A DNA stretch of 35,133 bases, from NCBI GenBank assembly GCA_946404585.1, contig CAMJEC010000004.1:1-35133 (forward strand), read 5' to 3'. This document shows positions 5,763 to 31,049 of this stretch, one piece after another. The translations under genes and the position numbers were made by a program. The DNA is from an uncultured Caryophanales bacterium. GTDB taxonomy: Bacteria > Bacillota_I > Bacilli_A > RFN20 > CAG-826. A model generated the notes under the pieces. It made no database searches. It had not been told where the DNA came from and saw nothing but the letters and a program-made list of their open reading frames with translations. Position 1 is the first letter of the stretch, and every line of letters begins with the position of its first letter.

Positions 5763-7709
5763 ATGAGTAAATATATAATCAAAAAAACAGTTGAGATTTC
5801 AAAACCATTGGTATTTTTGTGTGGCTCTTATTACAACTCAGACAATAAAGAGGACAAGAGAGGAATAACCTGTGACTATTTGAAATACCGTTCCAGCGGA
5901 AAATTATACCCATTGATAGTTGATAACTTTTTAGATCTTGATGCTATCGAGAGTGTAGATTTTTCAATTGAAAAATATGAAGAATTAATATCAAATATCT
6001 CGGTACTAAATATTATTTATTTAGAATCATTTTCAAGTGCTTCTGAATTGGGACTGTTTACCAGCAATACATCCACAACTAAAAACCTGGTATTTTATCC
6101 AGATAGTTCTAACCTTATTCTAAATAAAATCGGCTATTTTATCAGAAATGGTGTCTTTGATGGAAAAAGCGAAATGATTGTTCATCACCCATATTTGGCG
6201 CTTGTAGAGCGATACGCTCACGGAACAGATTATGTTGACGAATACTATTACTTTCTGAAAAACGAAATTCCTGATGAACTAAAGCCTATTCTTAATGAAG
6301 AAATTGATGCTGTCGCTAGTAAAGAATACTCTCCGGAGTTTTTGCTTGATGAAACTATTCCGAAAACACTCGGCATGATGTCTTTCTTAATTAATGTTTC
6401 GCTCGAAAAGGTGTTTTTTTCAGCTCAAACTGCCTTTTATATGCTTTATGCAATAATTGTTAGAAATAACATGTTGGACAGCATTCTCACTCTTGACCCG
6501 GATACTGAATGCTTAAAGTGTTTAAAATCATTAGAAGACAGCATATTTAATACTATTGAATTCGGTAAAATCTTAGAAGAGTGTGAAAATTATTCATTAG
6601 AAATACTAACCTTCAAGGAACCGCTCGAGTTTATCAAATATGCGCTATTCTTTATTAAATATCTCACAAGAGAGATGTTTAGCAAAAACAAAAAAATGGT
6701 TTCCAAAGCTTTAATTACAAAATCAGATGATATCTTCTATTGTTGTGATGATTATAAACTTTTAGAAAGCAAGCTGATGCCTTTTCATGAAAATATTAGT
6801 GGAATTGCAAAAACAAAAGGCATTAAACGCTTTACCCTTTATAAAAATCATAGAAGTAGGAGCATTATTGCCTATTCAGATGATGAAAGCGGTGAAGAAT
6901 TAAGGAAGGCACATCAAGTTATAAGTGATGGTCTTGCTAAAATATCGAAAGATTTTTCTTTATTTTCTTCGTACTCTTATGCATACAAAGATGGGAAAAA
7001 CACTCTCTTGTGCATCAAAAAACACATCAATTCCTCTTACTTTTTGAAAATGGATATTCACAAATTTTTTGAAACTATGAAACCAACGATATTTTTGAAG
7101 AAATTGATGGATGCTTTTGAAAAGACAACAGAATATAAGACGATGGATGATAAACAAAGGAAAAGATTTGAATCAAAACTCAATTCTTATATCAACTTGA
7201 TAACTATTTCTGGTTCTTTTCCGGTCGGCTTTGTTTCATCTCCGATTGTCTCCGAAATATATTTGAACAAATTTGATAAAAAAATAACTACACTTCTTGA
7301 GGGAGGAGGAATCTTTTACACAAGATATGCAGATGACATGCTCTTTTCTTCTAGCGAGAAATTCGATCATAATAAAATAATTGAATTGGTTAAAAATATG
7401 CTTAATGACGAAGAACTTAGCGTTAATGACGAAAAAACGATGTATAAAGAATTGAAAAACGTTGGTGATTCAATAAGGTTTGTTGGATTGAATATTGTAA
7501 AAACGCAAGAGTCTAATTCGATTACTATTGGCAATACTTACATAAGACGCTTGGCAAGAATGAAAGCTTTCTCTTCTGGTGGAGAATATGATTCAAAAAA
7601 AATCACTGGTTTAGAAAACTATTTAAAATATAACGACCCTGCTGGATATAAAAAGTATCTTAATGTAGTAGATGTTTACTTAAAAACTAACAATTTAAAA
7701 AAACAATAG
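5763..7709 (+). CDS. Reverse transcriptase with N-terminal nucleoside-deoxyribosyltransferase-like (retron effector-like) domain
   Basis: RT motifs 'SSYFLKMDIHKFFETM', 'GSFPVGFVSSPIVSEIYL', 'YTRYADDMLFSS', 'IRFVGLNIVKT'; N-terminus 'PLVFLCGSYYNSDNKEDKRGITCDYLK...LNIIYLESFSSASELGLFTSN...NLVFYPDSSN'. Confidence 0.85.
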   Translation: MSKYIIKKTVEISKPLVFLCGSYYNSDNKEDKRGITCDYLKYRSSGKLYPLIVDNFLDLDAIESVDFSIEKYEELISNISVLNIIYLESFSSASELGLFTSNTSTTKNLVFYPDSSNLILNKIGYFIRNGVFDGKSEMIVHHPYLALVERYAHGTDYVDEYYYFLKNEIPDELKPILNEEIDAVASKEYSPEFLLDETIPKTLGMMSFLINVSLEKVFFSAQTAFYMLYAIIVRNNMLDSILTLDPDTECLKCLKSLEDSIFNTIEFGKILEECENYSLEILTFKEPLEFIKYALFFIKYLTREMFSKNKKMVSKALITKSDDIFYCCDDYKLLESKLMPFHENISGIAKTKGIKRFTLYKNHRSRSIIAYSDDESGEELRKAHQVISDGLAKISKDFSLFSSYSYAYKDGKNTLLCIKKHINSSYFLKMDIHKFFETMKPTIFLKKLMDAFEKTTEYKTMDDKQRKRFESKLNSYINLITISGSFPVGFVSSPIVSEIYLNKFDKKITTLLEGGGIFYTRYADDMLFSSSEKFDHNKIIELVKNMLNDEELSVNDEKTMYKELKNVGDSIRFVGLNIVKTQESNSITIGNTYIRRLARMKAFSSGGEYDSKKITGLENYLKYNDPAGYKKYLNVVDVYLKTNNLKKQ

Positions 7710-13046: not shown

Positions 13047-14192
13047 ATGAAGCTTTTGAAATTAAAAGTTCCAAGAGGATACAAAATGTTGTGTAAAAAC
13101 TTTGAGATTAATTTTCTTACAAAAACAAGAGTTAACAAGTCTGCTAATAACGATGATTTAATCGAATTGGAGAATGATTTTTATTATCCAAAAGAAACCG
13201 CGTTTATTGGCAAGAATTCATCTGGAAAGTCAACAACGCTAGAATTAATACATATCTGCTTATATTTATTACAATTCGGTAGAATACCTGCAGCTTTTTT
13301 TGACGAAGATGATAGTTTTTCCCTTGAAGTTATTTTCTTTGAAAAAGGCAAAATCTACAAATATTGTGGCGACTATATTTGCAATAAATTAATTGCGGGT
13401 GAATATTTGGCAATCGTAAGTGAAGATTTGAATCGTGGTGACTATAATTCAAATACAAGGAAAGACCTTTCAAATATTAATTTTACTAGAGTCAAAGATT
13501 TTATTGAAAAAGCAAGTCCTGACACTTCTTGTATCCATAAGTACGTAAACGATGGACTTACGCATCTTTTTGTTAATTATTTCGAGGATAACGTTGATAT
13601 GTTCGTGCCATTCTATTCAATTATCGATGAAAATTATGGCAAAGGCTCTTTCATGAAACTTGTTTATCTTTTTGATGATAGCATAGAAAAATTGGCTCCA
13701 AATTTTGATAAAAAAGGCAAAAACGATGGCTTTATTTTCAAAAGAGTTAATTGGAAGGAAAAGATTGTTTCTGATGGGTACTTAAAAAACAATCTTTCTT
13801 CTGGAACCATTCGAGGCATTAATCTATATGGCGCGGCTATCGTGTCTTTTGTTCATGGTTCACATCTTCTTGTTGATGAATTAGAAAAGAATTTTAACAA
13901 GAACCTTATTGGCAACCTTATACAAATGATTAATGATCCAACCTTAAATAAAAATAACGCTACTTTGATTTATACAACACACTATTCTGAATTATTAGAT
14001 GAAACAAAGCGTTGCGATAATGTTAATGTTTTACATAGAGAGCAAGACATTATTACTTTAAAGAATATGTGCTTAGACTATACACAACGCACTGACATGC
14101 TCAAGAGTAGTAGTTTTGATCAAAATGCTTTTGATACGACCCTTAATTACAATCGTTTAATGGACCTTAAAAGGATGCTAAGAAGATTATGA
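13047..14192 (+). CDS. AAA/ABC-type ATPase (SMC/OLD/AAA_15-like), putative defence ATPase
   Basis: Walker A 'FIGKNSSGKSTTLE'; 'LLVDELEKNFNKNLIGNLI' Walker B-like; 'LIYTTHYSELLD' H-loop-like. Confidence 0.8.
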   Translation: MKLLKLKVPRGYKMLCKNFEINFLTKTRVNKSANNDDLIELENDFYYPKETAFIGKNSSGKSTTLELIHICLYLLQFGRIPAAFFDEDDSFSLEVIFFEKGKIYKYCGDYICNKLIAGEYLAIVSEDLNRGDYNSNTRKDLSNINFTRVKDFIEKASPDTSCIHKYVNDGLTHLFVNYFEDNVDMFVPFYSIIDENYGKGSFMKLVYLFDDSIEKLAPNFDKKGKNDGFIFKRVNWKEKIVSDGYLKNNLSSGTIRGINLYGAAIVSFVHGSHLLVDELEKNFNKNLIGNLIQMINDPTLNKNNATLIYTTHYSELLDETKRCDNVNVLHREQDIITLKNMCLDYTQRTDMLKSSSFDQNAFDTTLNYNRLMDLKRMLRRL

Positions 14193-14698
14193 AAGTAGCA
14201 GCATGTGAAGGAAAAAGTGAATTAAGATTAATACTTCAACTTCTTGAAAGAGGCATCTTTTTTGCAAAGGCAGAAGAATTAATTGATGATCGCCCTATTC
14301 ATATGCGCCAATTAAAAGAAATAGCTACTTTGATTAATACCTTGGATATTGATGAAACAATAGATGTTTATCGAATTGGTGATACACAAAAAGACAACTA
14401 TGATTTATCCGGATTTGAAGCCAGAAAAAGCAAGATAACTATTTATAAAGTGTGTACAAAGCCAGAAATTGAGATACTTGTAATTATCAGCGAAGGATTG
14501 TATAAGGATTTTTGTAAAAAACATCGTGAGCATAATATTTCACCAAAAGAGTATTTAAAAATTTATGTTAAAGGGTATTCATCTGTTGAGAAATATATTG
14601 AATCTCATGATATTGTTCCGGCAATCAAAGAGTATAAAAGAATCAAAAAGCACAAAGATGATGAACTCTATCTTGCTGATTTAATTAACGATGAATAA
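14189..14698 (+). CDS. Small protein with TOPRIM/RloB-like motifs, partner of the AAA ATPase
   Basis: 'VAACEGKSELRLILQLL' start and 'VYRIGDTQKDNYDL'; 4-nt overlap (ATGA) with the ATPase gene. Confidence 0.6.
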   Translation: MKVAACEGKSELRLILQLLERGIFFAKAEELIDDRPIHMRQLKEIATLINTLDIDETIDVYRIGDTQKDNYDLSGFEARKSKITIYKVCTKPEIEILVIISEGLYKDFCKKHREHNISPKEYLKIYVKGYSSVEKYIESHDIVPAIKEYKRIKKHKDDELYLADLINDE

Positions 14699-17116: not shown

Positions 17117-18394
17117 ATGCTAAAAGAATTCAGGGTCTCTAACTTCAAATCAATTCAAGAAGAGCAAACTTTTACCATGGAAGCTTGCCCAAAGACTGTT
17201 GTGTCTGAATATCCAGAACACGTTACTAACATTGGTGGAGAAAGATTATTAAAAGTTTCATCCATCTATGGTCCTAATGGCGGTGGTAAATCTAATTTAT
17301 TTAAAGCGCTTAATACTTTTGGATTAATTGTTTTGCAAATGCAAGTATTAAACGATTCAATTAAAAACGAGAACTATTTTCCTAACTTATACACAAATGA
17401 AAAAAATACCAGTTTCACAATGTTTATCGTCAGAGATGGATTTGAAATTGGTTATTCTTTGATTGCTAATTTGAATAACGTACAACAAGTTGTTGCTTCT
17501 GTTTTCTCACTCCAATATGTTTGGGCGATTGATGTTTCAATTGTCGAGGAAGAATTAACTTGTCGTAAAATAGGTGAAAGCACTTTTAAAACGGTCTTTA
17601 AAAGAAATAAAGATGGAAGTGTAGTTTCTGATGCTTTAGATGACATCGATTTAATTAAAAATCAGAGATTATTATCTAAAAACCAAACTTTTATTAAGTA
17701 CTTCAAAGATTCTTTTGTTAGAGGGAATACTGAATCTGAAGTTACTCCATTATTCTTGTTTTATGATGAAATCGCTTCATATGTTTGGGCAAGAAGAGAA
17801 TTAAGAACATTTAATTATTTACAAGACGCTGTTAGTTTATTAACTCCTTGCTTAAATAAAGCTAGAGAGATGCTTAATGCATTAGATATGAGAATCACAA
17901 AGCTCTATTTCAAGGAAAAAGACCCAGGTGTGTATTACTTATATATTGAAAGAAAGACTGAAGATGGCAAAACCATTTCTATTCCATTAGCCAATGAATC
18001 TAGTGGCACCATTAAAGCGGTCAATATTATCTTTGATATTCTTGTTTCTAAAGAAGAAAGCGTCTGCATCGCAGATGACTTTGATGCGCATTTACATCCA
18101 AAGCTTATTAAAGCAATCGTGGAATTCTTTGCCTGTGAAAATAACAAAAAGAGACAACTTATTTATAACTCTCATGACATTACTAATATGAGCAATAAAC
18201 TTTTTAGAAGAGATGAGATTTGGTTTGCTTATAGAGATGATAATTACGCTACTCAATATGTCCCATTATCAAATATTGTTAACTATAAAGGTGAGATGGT
18301 TAGAAAAGACGCCGTGTATGGTAAACAGTATCTTGAAGGTAGATATGGTGCAGATCCATTCATTAAGAAAGGCTTAGGGTGGTGCAATGATTAA
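17117..18394 (+). CDS. AAA_15-type ATPase, RloA/AbiLi-like
   Basis: 'LKEFRVSNFKSIQEEQTFTMEA', Walker A 'YGPNGGGKSNLFKAL', 'SVCIADDFDAHLHPKLIKAIVEFF', 'LIYNSHDITNMS'. Confidence 0.88.
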   Translation: MLKEFRVSNFKSIQEEQTFTMEACPKTVVSEYPEHVTNIGGERLLKVSSIYGPNGGGKSNLFKALNTFGLIVLQMQVLNDSIKNENYFPNLYTNEKNTSFTMFIVRDGFEIGYSLIANLNNVQQVVASVFSLQYVWAIDVSIVEEELTCRKIGESTFKTVFKRNKDGSVVSDALDDIDLIKNQRLLSKNQTFIKYFKDSFVRGNTESEVTPLFLFYDEIASYVWARRELRTFNYLQDAVSLLTPCLNKAREMLNALDMRITKLYFKEKDPGVYYLYIERKTEDGKTISIPLANESSGTIKAVNIIFDILVSKEESVCIADDFDAHLHPKLIKAIVEFFACENNKKRQLIYNSHDITNMSNKLFRRDEIWFAYRDDNYATQYVPLSNIVNYKGEMVRKDAVYGKQYLEGRYGADPFIKKGLGWCND

Positions 18395-19079
18395 ACTACG
18401 TGGTAGAAAGAACATACCCCTAACACTTATGGCTTTTGGTAGGCACTTAGTCTACGCCGAAGGAACAAAAACAGAGCCGCTATATGTGGAAGATTTAAAA
18501 CTATTTGTTTCTGAGCAATTAAATGTTTCAAAAGAAGACATTGAAATAGTGCCAGTTAAAACCAATAAAAGTCAGCATACTGTTGAACTAGTTCAATATG
18601 CAATTAAAGATGTTGAAAAGCGCTTAAATAATCAAGAAACAATTAATTACGTATGGATTTTCTATGATAAAGATGACTATCAGGATTTTGATAAAGCATA
18701 TAAATTAATCAAAAAGCAAAATAAGGTAGGCTCTGATATTGAATGGAAAGCGTGTTGGTCAAATGAATGCTTTGAAGTATGGGCTTATCATTATTTTGAA
18801 AATTTAGAATCACAAATTGATAGAAAACTATATATTGAGAAGATTAATGATTTCTTAAAGAAAAATGGCTGTAAAGAGAAATACAACAAAACAAGAAAAG
18901 ATATACATCACTTTCTAACAAACAATGGTGGCGATATAAGATTGGCCACTAAATATATGAAAGCAAAAGACACTAATTCTGATAGCAAACCAAATCCATC
19001 AAGTGGAATATATCAATTCGCGGAATATCTATTGGTCTATATTGATAACGAAAAAGCAAAAACCAAAAGAATGAATTAA
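18387..19079 (+). CDS. RloB/AbiLii family protein (TOPRIM-like)
   Basis: 'HLVYAEGTKTEPLYVEDLK', 'NYVWIFYDKDDYQDFDKAYKLI', 'WKACWSNECFEVWAYHYFE' typical of RloB; overlaps the RloA-like gene by 8 nt. Confidence 0.88.
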   Translation: MIKLRGRKNIPLTLMAFGRHLVYAEGTKTEPLYVEDLKLFVSEQLNVSKEDIEIVPVKTNKSQHTVELVQYAIKDVEKRLNNQETINYVWIFYDKDDYQDFDKAYKLIKKQNKVGSDIEWKACWSNECFEVWAYHYFENLESQIDRKLYIEKINDFLKKNGCKEKYNKTRKDIHHFLTNNGGDIRLATKYMKAKDTNSDSKPNPSSGIYQFAEYLLVYIDNEKAKTKRMN

Positions 19080-19150: not shown

Positions 19151-19178
19151 TTGAATAATAAAAAAGAGTTTGTATACT
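19151..19178 (+). promoter_or_regulatory. Promoter placing the predicted transcription start at or next to ATG 19185
   Basis: TTGAAT (19151-19156), 16-nt spacer, TATACT (19173-19178), then 6 nt to ATG. Confidence 0.6.
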
Positions 19179-19184
19179 CTTCTT

Positions 19185-20336
19185 ATGAAACCAATATCTA
19201 AGCTCATTACTAATATGAAGCCTTCTGGCATCAGAGAGTTCTTTAACTATGCTTCTGAAAGGCCAGAGATTACATCGTTGGGTGTGGGGGAACCAGATTT
19301 CACAACACCCCAACCAATTATTGATGCTGCTGAAGAGAGTTTGGATAAAGGCAAAACATTCTATACCTCTAACCAAGGCTTACCATCTTTAAGAAAGAGA
19401 ATTAGTAAATACTTACAAGATAGATTTGGAGTAGACTATAACTCCGATGCAATGATATTAACTGCTGGATCGTCACAAGGCATCTTAGCGGCTTTAATGG
19501 CAATTATTAATCCAGGTGATGAAGTCATCGTTACTGAACCAACATATATCTGCTATATCCCAGATATTGAAATGTGTGGTGGTAAAGCAGTAGTGATTCC
19601 TTTAAAAGCGGAGAATAACTTCAAACTCACAAAAGAAGAACTTGCTTCACACATCACTCCAAAGACTAAAGCAGTCTTCTTATCTTTCCCTAATAACCCA
19701 ACTGGGGCAATTATGACCAGAGAAGATTTAAAAGAAATAGCGCCTTTAATCTTGGATAATGACCTATACGTTATTAGTGATGAAATATATGCTGAATTAA
19801 CATATGGTAGAAAGCATTGCTCAATCGCGGCCTTGCCAGGCTTTAAGGAAAGAACCATCTTAATAAATGGCTTCTCTAAAGCTTTCGCTATGACTGGTTG
19901 GAGATTAGGCTATGTATGCGCTCCTAAAGAAATACTTGATCAAATATTAAAGATTCAACAATATATCATGCTCAGTGCTCCTACAATGGCGCAGTATGGT
20001 GCGAAAGCCGCATTAGATTACTGTATACCTGATATGGAAAACATGGTCGCGGAGTACAATCGTAGAAGAGAATACCTATTAAAGTCATTTAAAGAACTCG
20101 GTATAGATTGTTTTAACGCTGAAGGTGCATTCTATTTATTCCCGTCTATTAAGAAGTTTGGAATGTCTTCTAGAGAATTCTGCTTAAAACTATTAAATGA
20201 ATATGATGTCTTAGTTGTTCCAGGAACAGCATTTGGTGATAGTGGTGAAGGCTATATCAGAATTAGCTATGCTGCGAGTATGGAAAAAATAGCATCTTTT
20301 ATTGATGCGTTGAAACAACTGTGTGATAAAGAATAG
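19185..20336 (+). CDS. Class I/II PLP-dependent aminotransferase
   Basis: 'SLGVGEPDFTTPQPIIDAA', 'SFPNNPTGAIMTREDL', 'LINGFSKAFAMTGWRLGYVCAP'. Confidence 0.92.
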   Translation: MKPISKLITNMKPSGIREFFNYASERPEITSLGVGEPDFTTPQPIIDAAEESLDKGKTFYTSNQGLPSLRKRISKYLQDRFGVDYNSDAMILTAGSSQGILAALMAIINPGDEVIVTEPTYICYIPDIEMCGGKAVVIPLKAENNFKLTKEELASHITPKTKAVFLSFPNNPTGAIMTREDLKEIAPLILDNDLYVISDEIYAELTYGRKHCSIAALPGFKERTILINGFSKAFAMTGWRLGYVCAPKEILDQILKIQQYIMLSAPTMAQYGAKAALDYCIPDMENMVAEYNRRREYLLKSFKELGIDCFNAEGAFYLFPSIKKFGMSSREFCLKLLNEYDVLVVPGTAFGDSGEGYIRISYAASMEKIASFIDALKQLCDKE

Positions 20337-20365
20337 AGTATTTAGACATTTAGTTACAATTACTT

Positions 20366-21115
20366 ATGACAAACCAAAACGATAATCCTTCCTTAATTAA
20401 TCGCGATGTTCTTGCTGAAGTTCTTTCTAATTTTATTGATGCATTAAAAAAAGCAGAAGATGACTTCTCAACTTCTTTGTTTAATACATTCAACAACCTA
20501 GTTGAAATCTATAAAGACTCACAAATATCGCAGGAAGAAAAAGAACGAATTTTAGATTTATCCAGAAAACTTGCGGATGAGCAAATGATTGCTACTTTAG
20601 ATGAAGATGTTGCTTTTTTTGAAAATTTTAAATGCACATCAAAGAACATAAAAACTTTCTATAATCGTTATTCTAAAGGAGAAGAATTCTCTTATTTGAT
20701 TAGCGAATTAAAAGAATCCGAGAAGATAGATAAACGATATTTACTGGAGGCTATCAAAAACTATAAGCACAAAAGCTACATGTCATGTGCAATGCTTCTG
20801 CTATCTATCATTGATGCCCGTTTTCTTTTGACGAGTGAAGACGAGAATGGTTTAAAAAGAAAACTAACAAGCACGTTAGCGTTAGAAAAGTTAGAAGAAA
20901 TAAAAGAAGAAAAAACATTAGATTTCGTTTTTTTAATAGAAACAAATACGTTGTTTATTCTATGCAATATGTTTAAGCACGCTCATAATTTCAAAAAAGA
21001 ACCTGATTACATAAACAGGAATTTCCTTTTTCATGGGCTTTCCAAAAGAAGAATTGATAAATATGACTGTATAAAACTTTTTATCATATGCTCATATGTG
21101 AATTATCTATTTTAA
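20366..21115 (+). CDS. Putative HEPN-domain protein
   Basis: C-terminal 'DYINRNFLFHGLSKRRIDKYDCIKLF' contains an R-N-x3-H HEPN-type motif in a helical protein. Confidence 0.55.
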   Translation: MTNQNDNPSLINRDVLAEVLSNFIDALKKAEDDFSTSLFNTFNNLVEIYKDSQISQEEKERILDLSRKLADEQMIATLDEDVAFFENFKCTSKNIKTFYNRYSKGEEFSYLISELKESEKIDKRYLLEAIKNYKHKSYMSCAMLLLSIIDARFLLTSEDENGLKRKLTSTLALEKLEEIKEEKTLDFVFLIETNTLFILCNMFKHAHNFKKEPDYINRNFLFHGLSKRRIDKYDCIKLFIICSYVNYLF

Positions 21116-21204
21116 ATATTTGTAAGATATGTGCTTCTAATATTTGTTTGACGATAACTAATTTTTTTATTACCATATTGTTGTTTAGTATTCGGCTATT
21201 TTAG

Positions 21205-22488
21205 ATGGGCACAATTAAAGAATTCTACAAGAGCAGACCACATTTTTTTAAGATGATTGATGATTCGACGTTTCTTTTTTGTGTGCTGAAGAATATTGAT
21301 TATAAAAAAGAAGAAGTTGAAGTAGAAAAATACTACGTCGCTCAAAGAGAATATAACATCTTTAAAAATAAAGTATTTAATGGATGTGTCGATGGTAAAA
21401 TCGACATTCCTAAAATAGGTCATTGTGCGAATACCTTATCGTTCAGTTCTTTTTTTGATATTTTTAATATCAGCATTAAAGAAGCGTCTTTGAACAATAA
21501 AACAAGTGTTATAAATGAAATAAATGCTCAATTATCATCAATTGCCCTTACGGTGAGAAAAAGTAAATATGTAAGAATAAATGACTTTGGAAAATTAAAC
21601 GAAGAGCTCGAAAGAGTATTTCGTGAAGGCAGTAACAACATTGAGGAAATAAAATGGCTTCCTGATGACGGAAAAGAAAAGTTCTTAAGACTATTCAATG
21701 TCGGACAAGCGAATTGCTCAGCTCTCTATTACGATAAAAAAGTGGTTTCATTTTTTGATTTAGGAAACAAAAACAGAAGAAATGGAGAGCCAGTAGCAGT
21801 GTTAAAAAGAAGTCTTAGCAATAATGAGATGCCTGTATCTATTATCATATCTCATTTCCATGATGATCACGTGAATTTGGCTAACTATCTACCTTTCAAA
21901 AAGTTTGGACAAGTTCTGTTTATCTTTCCGTTTGTAAAAAACCCAAATAACATATGCTATAAAGCTAGATTTTTAGTTCTTGCTGCTCATGCGTGTCCTT
22001 CAAAAATATATTTTGTTAAGGAAAGCGTCCCTGTTCCATTAATTGTTAACAACATCAAATTATATAAGGGCCGCAACATGGGCGATACTCTTGAAAATGA
22101 CATAGTTAATGCGGAAGGGATTATTTCATCATTCAACCTAAACGGAAAGAAAGTTGTAATTCCCGGTGATTCTTATTATGAAAACTGGCCAACTAAACTT
22201 GATGCTGATTATCTTGTTATTCCTCATCATGGAAGCGAATACGTTGGTGATTTAAGCAACATTAAAACGGAAAAAGTTAAGAAAGCATTTATTTTTTCAA
22301 AAAGAAATAGTAAATACCACCACCCAAATTTAGTTCACGCTAAAAAATTTACTAGGGTTGAGTTATTTTCGAACAGTATTAAAAATGGCCAAAACGTAAT
22401 GTTTGATAAAAGTGAAATGATTTACGAAGAAGACTTACCACATGGAATCTTTTTCAAAAATAACTCGCGACATACAGACTGGGAGTAA
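21205..22488 (+). CDS. MBL-fold metallo-hydrolase (ComEC/Rec2-like metallo-beta-lactamase domain)
   Basis: 'LFNVGQANCSALYYDKKVVSFFDLG', 'IISHFHDDHVNL' (HxHxDH), 'VVIPGDSYYENW', 'YLVIPHHGSEYVGD'. Confidence 0.85.
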   Translation: MGTIKEFYKSRPHFFKMIDDSTFLFCVLKNIDYKKEEVEVEKYYVAQREYNIFKNKVFNGCVDGKIDIPKIGHCANTLSFSSFFDIFNISIKEASLNNKTSVINEINAQLSSIALTVRKSKYVRINDFGKLNEELERVFREGSNNIEEIKWLPDDGKEKFLRLFNVGQANCSALYYDKKVVSFFDLGNKNRRNGEPVAVLKRSLSNNEMPVSIIISHFHDDHVNLANYLPFKKFGQVLFIFPFVKNPNNICYKARFLVLAAHACPSKIYFVKESVPVPLIVNNIKLYKGRNMGDTLENDIVNAEGIISSFNLNGKKVVIPGDSYYENWPTKLDADYLVIPHHGSEYVGDLSNIKTEKVKKAFIFSKRNSKYHHPNLVHAKKFTRVELFSNSIKNGQNVMFDKSEMIYEEDLPHGIFFKNNSRHTDWE

Positions 22489-22512
22489 TAGATAATCTCC
22501 ATTATCTTTATT

Positions 22513-23343
22513 GTGAGCAACAACATTATGGATACGAATGAATTAAGTAGAACCAAATTATACGAATACGCATCTAAGAATATACGAAAGATTGATATTT
22601 CTTTTAACTCTGTTGATGTTGTTTCAAATGTTTTGTCTCAGAGCTCTTTATTTCTTAATAAAATCGAGCCAATGGTTCGTCAAGACAAAACTGCTGAAGA
22701 TTTTGACAAGATTTTTGAAGAAAGCTTAGCGGCAATTAAGGATGAAACCATGAAGGAGAGACTTAATTCATCATTCCTAGAGCGCAAAAAAGCTATAGAA
22801 AAGAAAAAGCCTAAGTCTTTTGAGTCTTGGTTTGCGATTGTTTTGAACGCCCTTATTGATTATCAAAACAAAATAATTGAAGAGCAATACATATTTTCTG
22901 AAAAACTAAATAAAACAGTAGGAGATGGCAAGAATAGGAAAAAGACTTTTTTATCCTATGCCTTTGAAGATAAGGGGCTTTCTCTCTCCCTTTATATTTA
23001 TTTTCATCTACATGGTGGATTTTTATATGTTGACTGGATGTGGAACAAGGCAATTAAAAAATGCTCTCTTCTAAAAAGTATTATCAACAAAGAATTGAAA
23101 ACTTCTGCTCAGTTATTATTTTTAAGAACAACTACTAGCGAACTCAAAATTCAAGGTAACCACACGATAAGACAATGGTGCTCTTGGGAAATAGGTAACT
23201 TCTATACAAAAAGACCTAACGAAAAATTCATTTTAGATTTTTATTCCACGGCAAGTAACAATTTCTTTTTAGAAACATTCAAAGTTATGAAAAATGTTGT
23301 GAAAGGAAGAATTGTTGAAAAGAAAAACAATATAGGAGATTAA
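22513..23343 (+). CDS. TIR-like domain protein
   Basis: 'KKTFLSYAFEDKGLSLSLYIYFHLHGGFLYVDWMW', 'AQLLFLRTTTSELKIQGNHTIRQWCSWEIGNFYTK'; GTG start, ATG 22528 alternative. Confidence 0.7.
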   Translation: MSNNIMDTNELSRTKLYEYASKNIRKIDISFNSVDVVSNVLSQSSLFLNKIEPMVRQDKTAEDFDKIFEESLAAIKDETMKERLNSSFLERKKAIEKKKPKSFESWFAIVLNALIDYQNKIIEEQYIFSEKLNKTVGDGKNRKKTFLSYAFEDKGLSLSLYIYFHLHGGFLYVDWMWNKAIKKCSLLKSIINKELKTSAQLLFLRTTTSELKIQGNHTIRQWCSWEIGNFYTKRPNEKFILDFYSTASNNFFLETFKVMKNVVKGRIVEKKNNIGD

Positions 23344-23345
23344 GT

Positions 23346-24077
23346 ATGGGGCACAAGATATTCATAAGCTATAAATTTCATGACACACATGTCTATCAAG
23401 AAGTTAAACATGATTTGTTCGAAGCTAGAAAAGTAGGGGAAAGAACTCCAAGAGAGTATGTTAATGTTTTGGAAACATATATAAAAGAACATTCTGCCCA
23501 TTATTATAAAGCTGAAGAAGATAACGAACCGTTAGACGGAAAAACTGATGAGCAAATATGGGAATTTCTTAAAGACAAGATGTTCGATTCCACGATGACG
23601 ATTGTTTTAATTTCGCCATGTATGAAAGAAAACAAAAGAGAGAAAGATCAATGGATACCACGTGAAATACAATATTCTTTAGGTATTCAAACAAGAAATA
23701 ATGCGAGTGGAAATCCAGTTAGAAGCAACACAAACGCTATGATGGCAATAGTTCTTCCTGACGAAAATGGAAAGTACGATTACTATTTCGAAGATAAGAA
23801 GTGCTGTCCAGATGGATGCCGTGTTAATAAAACAAGCACATTGTTCTACATACTTAAGAAAAACGTTTTTAATTTGAAAGACGGTAATAGTTTTCGCATT
23901 TGTGAAAAAGAATCAAAAATTTATTCTGGCGGCAACCATTCATTTATTCCATTTTACAAATGGTGTGATGTCAATAATGAACAAAAGCTCGAGAAAGCAA
24001 TTGAACATTCTTTTGAAATATTAAACAATAGAGAAAAATACGACATTTGTCATGAAATAGAACCAAGGAGTAATTAG
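23346..24077 (+). CDS. TIR domain protein, ThsB-like
   Basis: 'GHKIFISYKFHDTHVYQEV', 'IWEFLKDKMFDSTMTIVLISPCMKENKREKDQWIPREIQYSLG'. Confidence 0.82.
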   Translation: MGHKIFISYKFHDTHVYQEVKHDLFEARKVGERTPREYVNVLETYIKEHSAHYYKAEEDNEPLDGKTDEQIWEFLKDKMFDSTMTIVLISPCMKENKREKDQWIPREIQYSLGIQTRNNASGNPVRSNTNAMMAIVLPDENGKYDYYFEDKKCCPDGCRVNKTSTLFYILKKNVFNLKDGNSFRICEKESKIYSGGNHSFIPFYKWCDVNNEQKLEKAIEHSFEILNNREKYDICHEIEPRSN

Positions 24078-24079
24078 AT

Positions 24080-25420
24080 ATGAGCATGCGTGATAACTAT
24101 TTGCTTAAAAGAACAGAAATACTTATTGTTTTTGCCAACAATGAAGAATTTAAAGGTTTTAAGGAATTTATTAGTGGAAAAACATCAATTAAAGTTGGAA
24201 ATACTTTTTTTGTAGCGGGTCGAGAGATTACCCCAATTATTGCTTACAACTATCATATTTGTTGCTTTTTGACTTCGTCGCCGGTAGGTGGATTAAGTAT
24301 CAGTGCAGAATTAAATAATGTTGCTAATTATTTTGAGAATCTAGCTTATATAGTCAACATAGGTTGTTGTGCCACAGCAAAGAAAAAAGTCGAAAAAGAC
24401 GTTATTTTTGCAGAAAAAATATTTGATGCTGATTTAAAAAAAGAAGAAAAACGTGGGACAAAATACTATTGTTCAGAGAATAAACATCTACATTTTGACA
24501 ATGCAATAAAAGCCTTTGTGGATGGTTTTAAGTGCCAAGATTTTAAAGCCATGTATGAGCCAATTATTTCGAGTTCATCTCTTGTTAGAAATTTTTGGAA
24601 GAAAAGGAGCTATTTGAAACAATATCCCACTGGTAAGGGCATTGAGATGGAAGGCAAAGCCGTTTCTGATTATGCTCTTCAAAGAGGAATCGAATGGATG
24701 CTTATAAAGGGAACAAGCGATAACGCTATCAAAAAGGATAGTAGTGCATTGCAAAGACCAATGACAAAATATGCAACGCAATTATTTTTTGGATTGCTAA
24801 AGAAAGAATTATTGAAAAGAAAAAGGCTCCCTGTGTTTGTAGGAGGCGCTGTTGCCCCAGGCTGTGAATTTAATGATAGAGATAGTTATATCAATGTAGA
24901 AAACGATTCTTTTGAATTGGGTAAGACTCTTTACGAAGCAAATTACAAAGTGGTAAATGGTCTAGGCCTCGGAGTTGGCACGAGTCTACTTGCTTCGGCA
25001 TATGACTATTGTATAAGCAATAGCATTAATGAAATTTCTGAATGTGTGGAAGTGTTTCCATTTCCTAGAATGATTGGACAGAAAGTTAACAATTTAAGTG
25101 AGTTTTACAGAAAACATAGAAAAATGATGATTGATAAATCTCTTATAGGCATATTTATTTTTGGCGATAACAGCAAAAAAGGAAAAAGCAATGGACTTCA
25201 AGAAGAATACGATGAATGTGGTGCGTCTATGTTGCCAAGGTTTGTCATACCAACCGAAGGATATTATTCTTGCGATTTGTTTGATAGCCACAGTTATAAA
25301 GGGATGAGTGATGTAATCGCAAAAAACTGTAAAAAGATTAAGAAGGAAAACAGCTTTTCAAATAACTTGAAAATTATTATGAAATCTATCCAAGACTTGG
25401 ATGAGTATTTTTACAATTAG
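24080..25420 (+). CDS. Nucleoside phosphorylase-like domain fused to a C-terminal SLOG (ThsA-like) domain
   Basis: N-terminal half 'PVGGLSISAELNNVANYFENLAYIVNIGCCA...GIEMEGKAVSDYALQRGIEWMLIKGTSDNA' (PNP/MTAN family); C-terminal half 'VFVGGAVAPG...VVNGLGLGVGTSLLASAYDY...EVFPFPRM...YRKHRKMMIDKSLIGIFIFGDN...GLQEEYDECGASMLPRFVIPTEG' (SLOG as in ThsA). Confidence 0.8.
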   Translation: MSMRDNYLLKRTEILIVFANNEEFKGFKEFISGKTSIKVGNTFFVAGREITPIIAYNYHICCFLTSSPVGGLSISAELNNVANYFENLAYIVNIGCCATAKKKVEKDVIFAEKIFDADLKKEEKRGTKYYCSENKHLHFDNAIKAFVDGFKCQDFKAMYEPIISSSSLVRNFWKKRSYLKQYPTGKGIEMEGKAVSDYALQRGIEWMLIKGTSDNAIKKDSSALQRPMTKYATQLFFGLLKKELLKRKRLPVFVGGAVAPGCEFNDRDSYINVENDSFELGKTLYEANYKVVNGLGLGVGTSLLASAYDYCISNSINEISECVEVFPFPRMIGQKVNNLSEFYRKHRKMMIDKSLIGIFIFGDNSKKGKSNGLQEEYDECGASMLPRFVIPTEGYYSCDLFDSHSYKGMSDVIAKNCKKIKKENSFSNNLKIIMKSIQDLDEYFYN

Positions 25421-25460
25421 TTTGATTATCGAAGATTGTGTAATTAGAGGAGGAATATTT

Positions 25461-26054
25461 ATGGGACACAGAGTTTTCGTATCGTACAAGTATAGTGATG
25501 CAGTTAACACAAGAGAAGAGATAAGAAAGAAGTTGGGCGATGAAGGACAATACTACAATGGAGAAAAAGGATTTGTAGCATTAAACAATGCCGATTCTAC
25601 AATCAAAGAGTATCTTAAAGAGATGATTTTTGGTACCTCTGTGACAGTTGTTATCATTTCTCCGCAAGTTGTTTTTAGTGAGTGGGTGGACTGGGAGATA
25701 AGATATTCTCTCAGACAACAATCAAGGTTTGATTCTACCTCTTTTAGAAATGGCATAGTTTGTGTAATACAGAGCCAAAAAGATTGGGCTGGTAATGAGA
25801 ATTGTCAATGGGCGTTGGATTCAAACGGAAAATATAAGAGAAACATTTTTCCACAAGCGATTTTAGATAATATGCAGACATATTTTAATGAAAATGCTTA
25901 TTTAAATGCACTATTTGGACTTAAAACAGATTGCGCCAAAGACTATTGCGTCTTAGTTAGCGAAGCATCTTTTAAGAAAGATCCGACAAAATATATTGAA
26001 GAAGCATATAGGCGAGCTCATGATGGTAGCTATGAAGTGGTTGTCAACAAGTGA
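25461..26054 (+). CDS. TIR domain protein, ThsB-like (second copy)
   Basis: 'MGHRVFVSYKYSDAVNTREEIRKKL', 'IKEYLKEMIFGTSVTVVIISPQVVFSEWVDWEIRYSLRQ'; RBS agaggagg before ATG 25461; track start 25401 overlaps the upstream CDS. Confidence 0.82.
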   Translation: MGHRVFVSYKYSDAVNTREEIRKKLGDEGQYYNGEKGFVALNNADSTIKEYLKEMIFGTSVTVVIISPQVVFSEWVDWEIRYSLRQQSRFDSTSFRNGIVCVIQSQKDWAGNENCQWALDSNGKYKRNIFPQAILDNMQTYFNENAYLNALFGLKTDCAKDYCVLVSEASFKKDPTKYIEEAYRRAHDGSYEVVVNK

Positions 26055-26097
26055 GTACGTTAAATAATTGTGCTGTTTTGTGTGATATACTATGAAT

Positions 26098-27309
26098 ATG
26101 AAATGCACAGAACTTCAAAATAGCTTCAGTCTTTATAAGATTTCTCACCTAAACATTTCCATGGCCCGTGGTAAACCTTGTCCTGAGCAACTAGATTTAT
26201 CTATTCCTATGTTAGACATCTTTAACAGTAATTCAAATCTAGTTATAAATGACATTGATTATCGTAACTATGGCATATTAGATGGTATCCCTGAATGTAA
26301 AAAAATGTTTTCTTATATTACAGGTTTAAAAGAAGAGAATATTATTGTTTATGGCAATTCATCGCTTAGTATCATGGCGTCCCTCCTAGATAAGAGCATG
26401 ATCCATGGTGTTAATGGAGGTATTCCATTCTCTAAACAATCTCATATTAAATGGTTATGTCCTGTCCCAGGATATGATAGACACTTTACTATATGTGAAG
26501 CATTAGGCATTGAAATGATTAATATACCTATGCATGAAGATGGACCAGATATGGACTTAATAGAAGAATATATTAAGGATCCAGAAGTTAAAGGCATATG
26601 GTGCGTACCAAAGTACTCAAACCCAACAGGTAATACATATAGTGATGAAGTTATTAGAAGATTCGCTAGATTAAAACCAGCAGCATCTGACTTTAGAATC
26701 TACTGGGATCTAGCGTACCTCCCTCAATCAACATTTGATGGTAACTATGAACCATTGCTTAATATCTACGATGAATGTGTAAAGAATAACAACGAGGATA
26801 TTGTGTATATATTCACATCTACATCTAAGATGACTTTCCCAGGCAGTGGTGTTGCCATGTTAGGGGCATCACCAACTAACTTGAAAGACATCAAAAATAC
26901 ACTTAAATATCAAACCATTGGTTATGATAAGTTAAATCAATATAGACATGCTTTATTTTTAAAAGATGAAAAGACTATTAGAGAACATATGAATAAACAT
27001 GCTGCCATATTAAAACCAAAGTTTGATTTAGTTTTAGACATATTTGAAAAAGAAATAAAAGACATCGCTAGATGGAGTAAACCTAAAGGAGGATACTTTA
27101 TATCCCTTTATGTTAAAAACGCCTCAGAAGTCGTAAAAACATGTAAAGAATTAGGAGTAACACTTACTGATGTCGGTAGTGCATATCCTTATCATAAAGA
27201 TCCTGATAATGAACATATTAGAATATGTCCAAGTTATCCATCATTAGGAGAGTTGAAGACCGCTAGTGAAGTTATCTGCTTAGCGGTCAAGATGGCTTAT
27301 AACAAATAA
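26098..27309 (+). CDS. PLP-dependent aminotransferase (putative aspartate aminotransferase, class I/II)
   Basis: 'SMARGKPCPEQLDLSIPMLD', 'GIWCVPKYSNPTGNTYSDEVIRRFA', 'FTSTSKMTFPGSGVAMLGAS'; ATG 26092 or 26098. Confidence 0.88.
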   Translation: MKCTELQNSFSLYKISHLNISMARGKPCPEQLDLSIPMLDIFNSNSNLVINDIDYRNYGILDGIPECKKMFSYITGLKEENIIVYGNSSLSIMASLLDKSMIHGVNGGIPFSKQSHIKWLCPVPGYDRHFTICEALGIEMINIPMHEDGPDMDLIEEYIKDPEVKGIWCVPKYSNPTGNTYSDEVIRRFARLKPAASDFRIYWDLAYLPQSTFDGNYEPLLNIYDECVKNNNEDIVYIFTSTSKMTFPGSGVAMLGASPTNLKDIKNTLKYQTIGYDKLNQYRHALFLKDEKTIREHMNKHAAILKPKFDLVLDIFEKEIKDIARWSKPKGGYFISLYVKNASEVVKTCKELGVTLTDVGSAYPYHKDPDNEHIRICPSYPSLGELKTASEVICLAVKMAYNK

Positions 27310-29308: not shown

Positions 29309-29405
29309 ATAATAGTAAGTAAAGCAAAGTTGACACAAAATAGTTTGCTTTTATTATAAAAAATACATTATGATAAGACAGCAACAACAAAAGGGAGGTC
29401 TCTTT

Positions 29406-31049
29406 ATGACCATTGGTGAAAAAATCGTTCACTTGAGGATAGTGAACAATATTTCTCAAGAAGAATTAGCGAAGATCTTAAAAGTCTCTAGACAGTCTAT
29501 GTCTAAATGGGAAAATGGTGAAAACCTTCCTCCATTAACAGCGATTAAAGATCTATGCGCTATCTTCAAAGTAACTGCTGATGAATTAATTGATGATAAC
29601 ATCGTTATTCATAAAGGTTACAAATTAGAATTACCAAATGAACACATTAAAACCAAATACTTTGGTACAGATGGTTTCAGAGGTGAGGCTAATGAATTAT
29701 TAAACTCAGATAGAGCGTATAAGATTGGTAGATTCCTTGGTTGGTTCTACTCTAATCCTAAATACAATATGCAAAAGCCAGGCTATAGAGCCAAGATCGT
29801 TATTGGTAAAGATACAAGACGTTCTTCTTATATGCTTGAATATGCTGTTGCAGCAGGTGCAGCATCATCTGGTGCGGACGTTGAACTTCTCCACGTTACA
29901 ACCACTCCATCTGTCTCTTATATCGTGAGACAAGACTGCTTCGACTGTGGTGTGATGATTACTGCTTCTCATAACCCATTCTATGATAATGGTATTAAAG
30001 TCATTAACGGTAATGGTGAAAAGTTAGAAGACGCAGTGGCGTATCTCGCTGAAGCTTATTTAGATGGTGATTTCAAAACCTTAGGTTTAGAAGAAGGTGA
30101 AACTGATTTACCATTCGCGAAACGTAGTGATATCGGCACAATTAATGACTACTCCAGTGGTAGAAATAGATATATTGGCTATCTCATCTCTTTAGCCAAA
30201 CACTCCATGAAGAAATTAAAAGTGGGCTTAGATGCCGCGAACGGTGCTTCTTGGATGATTGCTAGAAGTGTATTCGAAGCACTAGGGGCTCAAGTCTTTA
30301 TCATTAATAACCATCCAGATGGTTTAAATATTAACTTCAACGCTGGTAGTACACACATTGAAAACTTCTGTAAATACGTTAAAGACAATAAGTTAGATGT
30401 TGGCTTTGCCTTCGATGGTGACGCTGATAGATGTATCGCTGTTGACGAAAACGGTAAAGAAGTTGATGGTGATAAGATCATGTACTTATTAGCCTGTAAG
30501 TTACAAAACGAAGGCTCTTTAGATAAGAACACCGTCGTGGCCACAATTATGTCTAACAGTGGTCTTGCTAAAGCCTTAAAACAAATTGGTGTTAATTTAG
30601 AAAGAACCCAAGTTGGTGATAGGTTCGTCTTTGAAAGAATGGTCAATGAAGGCTATGTCTTAGGCGGTGAACAATCTGGTCATATCATCATTAAGAAATA
30701 CGCTACTACTGGTGATGGTGTTTTAACCGCTATCATGGTCGCAGAAGAAATGCTTGAAAGAAAAGAAGCATTATCTAAACTCGTGGCCCCAGTTAAAGTG
30801 TTACCACAAAAACTTAAAAACGTTAGAGTCACTGATAAAGCTGCAACTGTGGAAGATGAAGTCGTTAAAGCGAAATTTGACGAAGTTAATAAAGAAATCG
30901 GTGATAACGGTAGAGCCTTATTAAGACAATCTGGTACCGAACCAGTTGTTCGTATCATGGTGGAACTTGGTTCTCTTGCGGAATGTGATAAATATATCGA
31001 CGCGATTTATAACGTCATTAAGAAGAGAGGTTATGTCATCGATGAATAA
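29406..31049 (+). CDS. glmM: XRE-family HTH domain fused to phosphoglucosamine mutase (GlmM-like)
   Basis: 'IGEKIVHLRIVNNISQEELAKILKVSRQSMSKWENGENLPPLTAIKDLCAIFKV' then 'TKYFGTDGFRGEAN...VMITASHNPFYDNGIKVINGNGEKL...FAFDGDADRCIAVDENG...RQSGTEPVVRIMVE'; RBS gggaggt. Confidence 0.9.
   Translation: MTIGEKIVHLRIVNNISQEELAKILKVSRQSMSKWENGENLPPLTAIKDLCAIFKVTADELIDDNIVIHKGYKLELPNEHIKTKYFGTDGFRGEANELLNSDRAYKIGRFLGWFYSNPKYNMQKPGYRAKIVIGKDTRRSSYMLEYAVAAGAASSGADVELLHVTTTPSVSYIVRQDCFDCGVMITASHNPFYDNGIKVINGNGEKLEDAVAYLAEAYLDGDFKTLGLEEGETDLPFAKRSDIGTINDYSSGRNRYIGYLISLAKHSMKKLKVGLDAANGASWMIARSVFEALGAQVFIINNHPDGLNINFNAGSTHIENFCKYVKDNKLDVGFAFDGDADRCIAVDENGKEVDGDKIMYLLACKLQNEGSLDKNTVVATIMSNSGLAKALKQIGVNLERTQVGDRFVFERMVNEGYVLGGEQSGHIIIKKYATTGDGVLTAIMVAEEMLERKEALSKLVAPVKVLPQKLKNVRVTDKAATVEDEVVKAKFDEVNKEIGDNGRALLRQSGTEPVVRIMVELGSLAECDKYIDAIYNVIKKRGYVIDE

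Follow-up and report, generated by a model that had tools for sequence, protein, structure and literature searches.

What does a TIR alarm switch on when the protein that carries the ThsA sensor does not carry the ThsA NADase? The question is raised by a single open reading frame in the window, by which we mean the whole 35,133-nucleotide stretch of DNA, from a gut-type bacterium, that was analyzed. We consider it probable that this frame belongs to a Thoeris-like anti-phage operon in which the SIR2 NADase of ThsA has been exchanged for a STALD-gated, MTAN-type nucleosidase that would be activated by a TIR signal. The genes and domains concerned are as follows.

19170 to 20336, forward strand: aminotransferase, a core gene and the left border of the slot (family scan and genome comparison).
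20366 to 21115, forward strand: 249-aa protein with no assigned family, located within the variable slot; operon membership doubtful.
21205 to 22488, forward strand: MBL-fold hydrolase, ComEC-nuclease-like, 427 aa (metal-ligand motifs).
22513 to 23343, forward strand: TIR2, with an unassigned N-terminal domain of its own (about residues 1-135) and a TIR-like domain with a WCSWE motif (E226; PADLOC ThsB 3.7e-8).
23346 to 24077, forward strand: ThsB-type TIR protein, 243 aa, with a catalytic-type Glu, E107 (PADLOC PDLC00428, 3.3e-58).
24080 to 25420, forward strand: nucleosidase (MTAN/PNP fold)-STALD fusion effector, ThsA-like, 446 aa (family scans, ThsA structure matches and an AF2 model).
24080 to 24817, forward strand: N-terminal MTAN-type nucleosidase domain of the effector (catalytic positions E23, E189-M190-E191 and S213-D214).
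24818 to 25348, forward strand: STALD (ThsA SLOG) predicted ligand-sensing domain of the effector (residues 247-423, PF18185).
25461 to 26054, forward strand: second ThsB-type TIR protein, 197 aa (PF08937 1.9e-10, PADLOC 7.7e-41).
26092 to 27309, forward strand: aspartate aminotransferase type Ic, a core gene and the right border of the slot (NF053594, 1.4e-164).

The effector gene encodes a two-domain protein, in which an MTAN-type nucleosidase fold makes up the N-terminal half and a STALD domain the C-terminal half. All the motifs that had been quoted for it in the initial annotation are located within the reading frame, with VGGLS (69-73), NIGCCA (93-98), GIEMEGKAV (187-195) and IKGTSDNA (209-216) in the N-terminal half and GLGLGVG (294-300), PFPRM (327-331), YRKHRKMMI (343-351), GIFIFGDN (357-364) and EEY (375-377) in the C-terminal half. 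The latter had been read as the SLOG sensor of ThsA, and this reading is borne out by a Pfam scan, which returns STALD (E 3.1e-20, 73 bits against a cut-off of 24) as the only family and no TPALS SLOG domain (PF18178). PADLOC ThsA STALD models also match this half, down to 5.6e-27, and it aligns to the solved ThsA structures 7uxt (1.8e-13), 8wc0, 8bto and 6lhx. In BcThsA the ligand 3'cADPR is coordinated by R371, K388 and E403 (PMC10022894). Two of these three pocket residues are kept in the effector, R371 as R347 and E403 as E376, and K388 is replaced by N364, a position that is a Lys in the sister protein of RUG14382, described below. Because of this replacement, the ligand of the effector may be one other than 3'cADPR.

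The N-terminal half had been described as PNP/MTAN-like and not SIR2, and both parts of this description hold. Family scans return no SIR2 match, and the NCBIfam MTAN model NF004079 matches residues 14-221 at 7.8e-7, with a score of 28.8 bits that lies far below the curated equivalog cut-off of 169. A two-row profile of this half, searched against the PDB, retrieves MTANs, related nucleosidases, and PNP/uridine phosphorylases (best 1zos, 1.5e-4). Aligned by hhalign with three Bacillota MTANs, the domain scores 93.9% (1.6e-7, 195 columns), against 0.3% in the control alignment with the SIR2 half of ThsA. Structure prediction, which the initial annotation had proposed as a check, points the same way: an AF2 model of the effector from a 12-row alignment (pLDDT 81.9, pTM 0.86) has MTANs as its top Foldseek matches (best E 1.9e-14, TMt reaching 0.79) and also matches ThsA 7uxt (1.7e-12). 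This model leans on the MTAN rows of its alignment and is not independent of them, since AF2 gave a pLDDT of 40.3 from the two fusion proteins alone and the MTAN rows were required for a confident model; the profile-profile comparison with MTANs and its SIR2 control are independent of those rows.

Positions that are invariant between the effector and housekeeping MTANs include E23, N93-I94-G95, S165, E189-M190-E191-G192 and S213-D214. Among these, we take E23 to be the catalytic Glu (E12 type), M190-E191 the Met-Glu ribose clamp, and D214 the catalytic Asp of MTAN. As the Glu and Asp of hydrolytic nucleosidases are thus kept, nucleosidase is a better name for the domain than phosphorylase. The earlier wording, nucleosidase/phosphorylase, can therefore be narrowed: its first term suits the MTAN-like fold and the hydrolytic residues, whereas the phosphorylase reading, which fits less well, was downgraded because hydrolases are the nearest relatives and the Glu of MTAN type is conserved. 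The purine-binding loop differs from that of MTANs, in that the motif SGDxF reads SSSSL, and this change argues that MTA and SAH are probably not the substrates.

The order of the operon is MBL gene, TIR2, ThsB, nucleosidase-STALD and second ThsB, with gaps of 24, 2, 2 and 40 bp, respectively. The initial annotation had set the effector between two ThsB-like TIR genes; it is indeed flanked by TIR genes, of which there are three and not two. TIR2 and the co-conserved MBL-fold hydrolase belong to the operon, and the system is larger than was first described. The ThsB that precedes the effector shares 37-46% identity with ThsBs that are paired with SIR2-STALD ThsA, and on plasmids of Paenibacillus and Cupriavidus members of its family are encoded next to proteins annotated as SIR2. 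For the second ThsB, the listed start of the reading frame at 25401 is too early, because a Shine-Dalgarno sequence, AGGAGG, precedes an ATG at 25461, which is the likely start. The MBL-fold protein has its metal-ligand motifs SHFHDDH (216), IPGDS (319) and PHHG (340) and is a candidate for either a co-conserved accessory or a second effector. Scans of the operon genes found no protease family, including trypsin-like proteases, and neither a CD-NTase, as in CBASS, nor a phosphorelay partner, as in Detocs, lies beside the effector, whose neighbors are TIR and MBL genes. The gene at 20366-21115 was not adopted as a member of the operon because it is absent from the RUG14382 copy. An Rfam scan of the window gave no match, and hits to consensus promoters and terminators were no more numerous than in shuffled sequence.

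The search for further PNP-STALD copies and their neighbors, also proposed at the outset, returned one more, in the uncultured Erysipelotrichaceae MAG RUG14382 (CADBXE010000001.1, L002/L021), which falls in the same genus as the MAG of the window. Its gene order is MBL, TIR2, ThsB and effector, followed by the same aspartate aminotransferase, and identities to the window are 39% for MBL, 47% for TIR2, 69% for ThsB and 43% for the effector. In both copies the effector lies within a few bp of ThsB. No second ThsB follows the effector in RUG14382, and another ThsB-type gene is found further upstream (PDLC00430, 1.2e-40). With the architecture confirmed and both known copies linked to TIR genes, the original proposal of a TIR-associated fusion effector stands.

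The fusion is rare. It is present in 2 of 224 family genomes, namely that of the window and RUG14382; the 395-genome class sample added no further genome, a single-protein scan of 85,462 genomes gave no match, and no full-length fusion was seen in the plasmids, phage records and viral contigs searched. Plasmids searched with the fusion matched through the STALD half only, and among the matches listed the proteins are annotated as SIR2 where named. The viral contigs searched with an alignment of the nucleosidase domain and with TIR2 gave no match, and neither did the plasmids searched with MBL. The fusion is known from two copies only, both in uncultured genomes of one genus. Weak full-protein matches (L004-L007, L011-L020) were rejected as radical-SAM/MTAN fusions, where read, or as reading frames of housekeeping-MTAN size. 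Within this set, L004, L005 and L007, from family genomes, are reading frames of ~830 aa in which a C-terminal MTAN domain is apparently joined to a membrane portion and to a cysteine motif resembling that of radical-SAM enzymes.

The two aminotransferase genes border the cassette in the window and in RUG14382 alike, and in the window this interval is 20337-26091. The same genes are 174 bp apart in a related genome, G136, with nothing between them; elsewhere they enclose one 286-aa membrane-type gene (G144) or a Fic gene (G141). As the interval may be empty, hold other genes or, in both copies, hold defense cassettes, it is regarded as a variable insertion slot. It is this genomic context alone that speaks for an anti-phage role, and the window as a whole reads as a defense island.

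Several other genes of the window deserve a brief description. An AbiL-like pair at 17117-19079 consists of an AAA ATPase (AbiLi, 9e-66) and an RloB-like protein; at 13047-14698 another AbiLi-like ATPase gene is followed by a small gene. A 648-aa reverse transcriptase at 5763-7709 (best PADLOC match RT_I-B, 6e-35) has a long N-terminal part of ~350 aa without a family assignment. The 1168-aa protein at 7893-11399 matches PADLOC Upx (8e-16) in its C-terminal part. Finally, the phosphoglucomutase/phosphomannomutase at 29370-31049 has an in-frame N-terminal Cro/C1-type HTH domain, an unusual arrangement.

How the operon relates to Thoeris can be judged from its relatives. The intact STALD proteins read elsewhere are all SIR2-STALD proteins, usually with an adjoining TIR gene. 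A Leuconostoc plasmid (L064) encodes a TIR2 homologue (27.7% over 93%), a SIR2-STALD ThsA (PADLOC 4e-184) and a ThsB; its TIR proteins are of the same families as the TIR2 and ThsB of the window, and its operon is the same system with the canonical effector. In genome G075, one operon (L092, 3822-7477) contains a TM-macro ThsA (PF20016, 8e-26), a ThsB, TIR2 (38%) and MBL. TIR2 is thus kept in RUG14382, in G075 and in the Leuconostoc Thoeris plasmid, and it adjoins MBL in all three TIR2-bearing genomes of the 146-genome family sample. The MBL homologues of L090 and L091 have no recognized TIR genes nearby. Because TIR2 and MBL are found together with both the nucleosidase-STALD effector and a TM-macro ThsA, they suggest a portable accessory module able to accompany Thoeris effectors of more than one kind. 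This, together with the SIR2-STALD make-up of the other intact STALD proteins, is the reason for regarding the operon of the window as Thoeris-like with a swapped effector. A prophage-borne type I Thoeris was also observed on a viral contig (L063, 1-2010), where a SIR2-STALD ThsA and a ThsB lie beside portal- and terminase-like genes.

Since the sensing half and the TIR partners are kept and the NAD-destroying part is replaced, the cell is probably shut down in another way in response to the same alarm chemistry. The explanation builds on the architecture, on the retention of the catalytic and most pocket residues, and on the linkage to TIR genes within an operon, which is seen in both of the divergent copies; from these we infer the identity of the signal, the activation, the substrate and the anti-phage effect. 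Infection would be sensed by the TIR proteins, that is, by ThsB with TIR2 and the second ThsB as further sensors, which would convert NAD+ into an ADP-ribose-type signal. Binding of this signal to STALD would activate the N-terminal nucleosidase, most likely via oligomerization, as in SIR2-STALD ThsA. The active enzyme would then hydrolyze some abundant purine nucleoside or nucleotide at its N-glycosidic bond and would thereby block the growth of the phage at the expense of the host cell. The substrate is not fixed by the sequence; the first candidate is ATP/dATP, by analogy with Cap17/Detocs, because Cap17, the nearest tested PNP-SLOG effector, degrades these nucleotides (PMC10952713, PMC12043709).

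The nucleosidase might instead, by releasing a base, produce a second signal or a modified nucleotide that acts on, for example, the MBL hydrolase, with no depletion involved. For the PNP-superfamily domains of conflict systems, Aravind and colleagues have predicted a role in producing second messengers through base release (PMC7159879), and the MBL gene is co-conserved with the cassette in both copies. However, MBL and TIR2 also accompany a TM-macro effector that has no nucleosidase, so the nucleosidase domain is not needed for their presence, and the degradation of (d)ATP by Cap17 is a further argument for destruction; we consider a second signal unlikely. Another reading makes the MBL hydrolase the principal effector, acting as a DNase like the MBL modules of Hachiman, Avs1 and Lamassu, and has the nucleosidase-STALD protein break down ADPR-type nucleotides, so that the signal is adjusted or terminated; this likewise seems improbable. 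The metal ligands of the MBL protein are kept, it accompanies different effectors, and defense systems are described as recurrently acquiring MBL-fold ComEC-like nucleases (PMC12799240). In that description, however, the MBL nucleases of Hachiman, Avs, Lamassu and DRT are partnered with trypsin-like proteases, which the operon lacks among its scanned genes. Moreover, STALD in known ThsA is an activating receptor and not a signal-hydrolase module, and no MBL gene is annotated in the SIR2-STALD operon of the Leuconostoc plasmid, which includes TIR2. The score below the MTAN equivalog cut-off and the altered purine-binding loop could also point to a catalytically dead relic that serves only as a platform for oligomerization or protein binding, a reading that is very unlikely given that every catalytic or ribose-binding position checked is retained in both copies, whose identity is only 43%. 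A housekeeping or metabolic enzyme placed beside TIR genes by chance has nothing beyond the MTAN fold in its favor and is hardly credible for a rare gene that, in each copy, lies within a few bp of ThsB, occupies a slot that a close relative leaves empty, and carries a domain whose other bearers read here are Thoeris-type defense proteins.

If the STALD-gated nucleosidase is indeed the effector, the operon represents a natural domain swap, in which the same STALD receptor and TIR families are wired either to SIR2 or to a nucleosidase. Two questions would then be open to direct test: does the gating by STALD depend on the enzyme to which it is fused, and does depletion of any central nucleotide, rather than NAD+ specifically, stop phages? 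The TIR2 and MBL module, being shared, connects type I-like with type II Thoeris operons and points to an accessory component that is not in the literature searched. Only tentatively, and with considerable doubt, can one go as far as a Thoeris class not yet described, whose TIR alarm would drive two output enzymes, a STALD-gated nucleosidase that destroys a purine nucleotide pool, not NAD+, and a co-encoded MBL-fold hydrolase, with a TIR2-MBL cassette portable across Thoeris effector types.

Whether a PNP-SLOG class is already in print had been left undecided in the initial annotation. A PNP fusion to a SLOG domain is published in Cap17 (PMC10952713), where the SLOG family is TPALS and the systems are others. 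No PNP-STALD or nucleosidase-STALD Thoeris was found in the open-access literature searched. For type VI Thoeris, a 2026 preprint (PMC13232231) cites a preprint of December 2025 (Yirmiya et al. 2025, 10.64898/2025.12.03.692087), and there is a real chance that the nucleosidase-STALD variant is already listed in the latter.

With respect to known systems, the N-terminal half shares the fold and catalytic residues of MTAN, but differs in its fusion to STALD, its score below the family cut-off and its changed SGDxF loop, and a housekeeping role is unlikely. The MBL-nuclease/trypsin modules of Hachiman, Avs1, Lamassu and DRT resemble the operon in their upstream ComEC-like MBL hydrolase; in contrast, the window has no trypsin-like protease, and a Thoeris-like partner is not listed among the acquirers in the accessible part of their description (PMC12799240). 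Cap17 and other PNP-TPALS ATP nucleosidases of CBASS, and Detocs, likewise couple a PNP-superfamily effector to a SLOG-type sensor in phage defense, whereas the sensor here is STALD and TIR proteins stand in the upstream position of the CD-NTase or phosphorelay. Type II Thoeris, as in G075, can have the TIR2 and MBL genes of the window and a ThsB in one operon, although its effector is a membrane-macro protein and its published ligand His-ADPR. Type I Thoeris has the same C-terminal STALD on its effector, the same ThsB and TIR2 families and the same operon layout, as seen in Leuconostoc; the window departs from it in having an MTAN-type nucleosidase and not SIR2, an MBL gene, an extra ThsB and a replaced pocket Lys, and it is for want of the N-terminal SIR2 NADase that the operon is not filed as canonical type I Thoeris.
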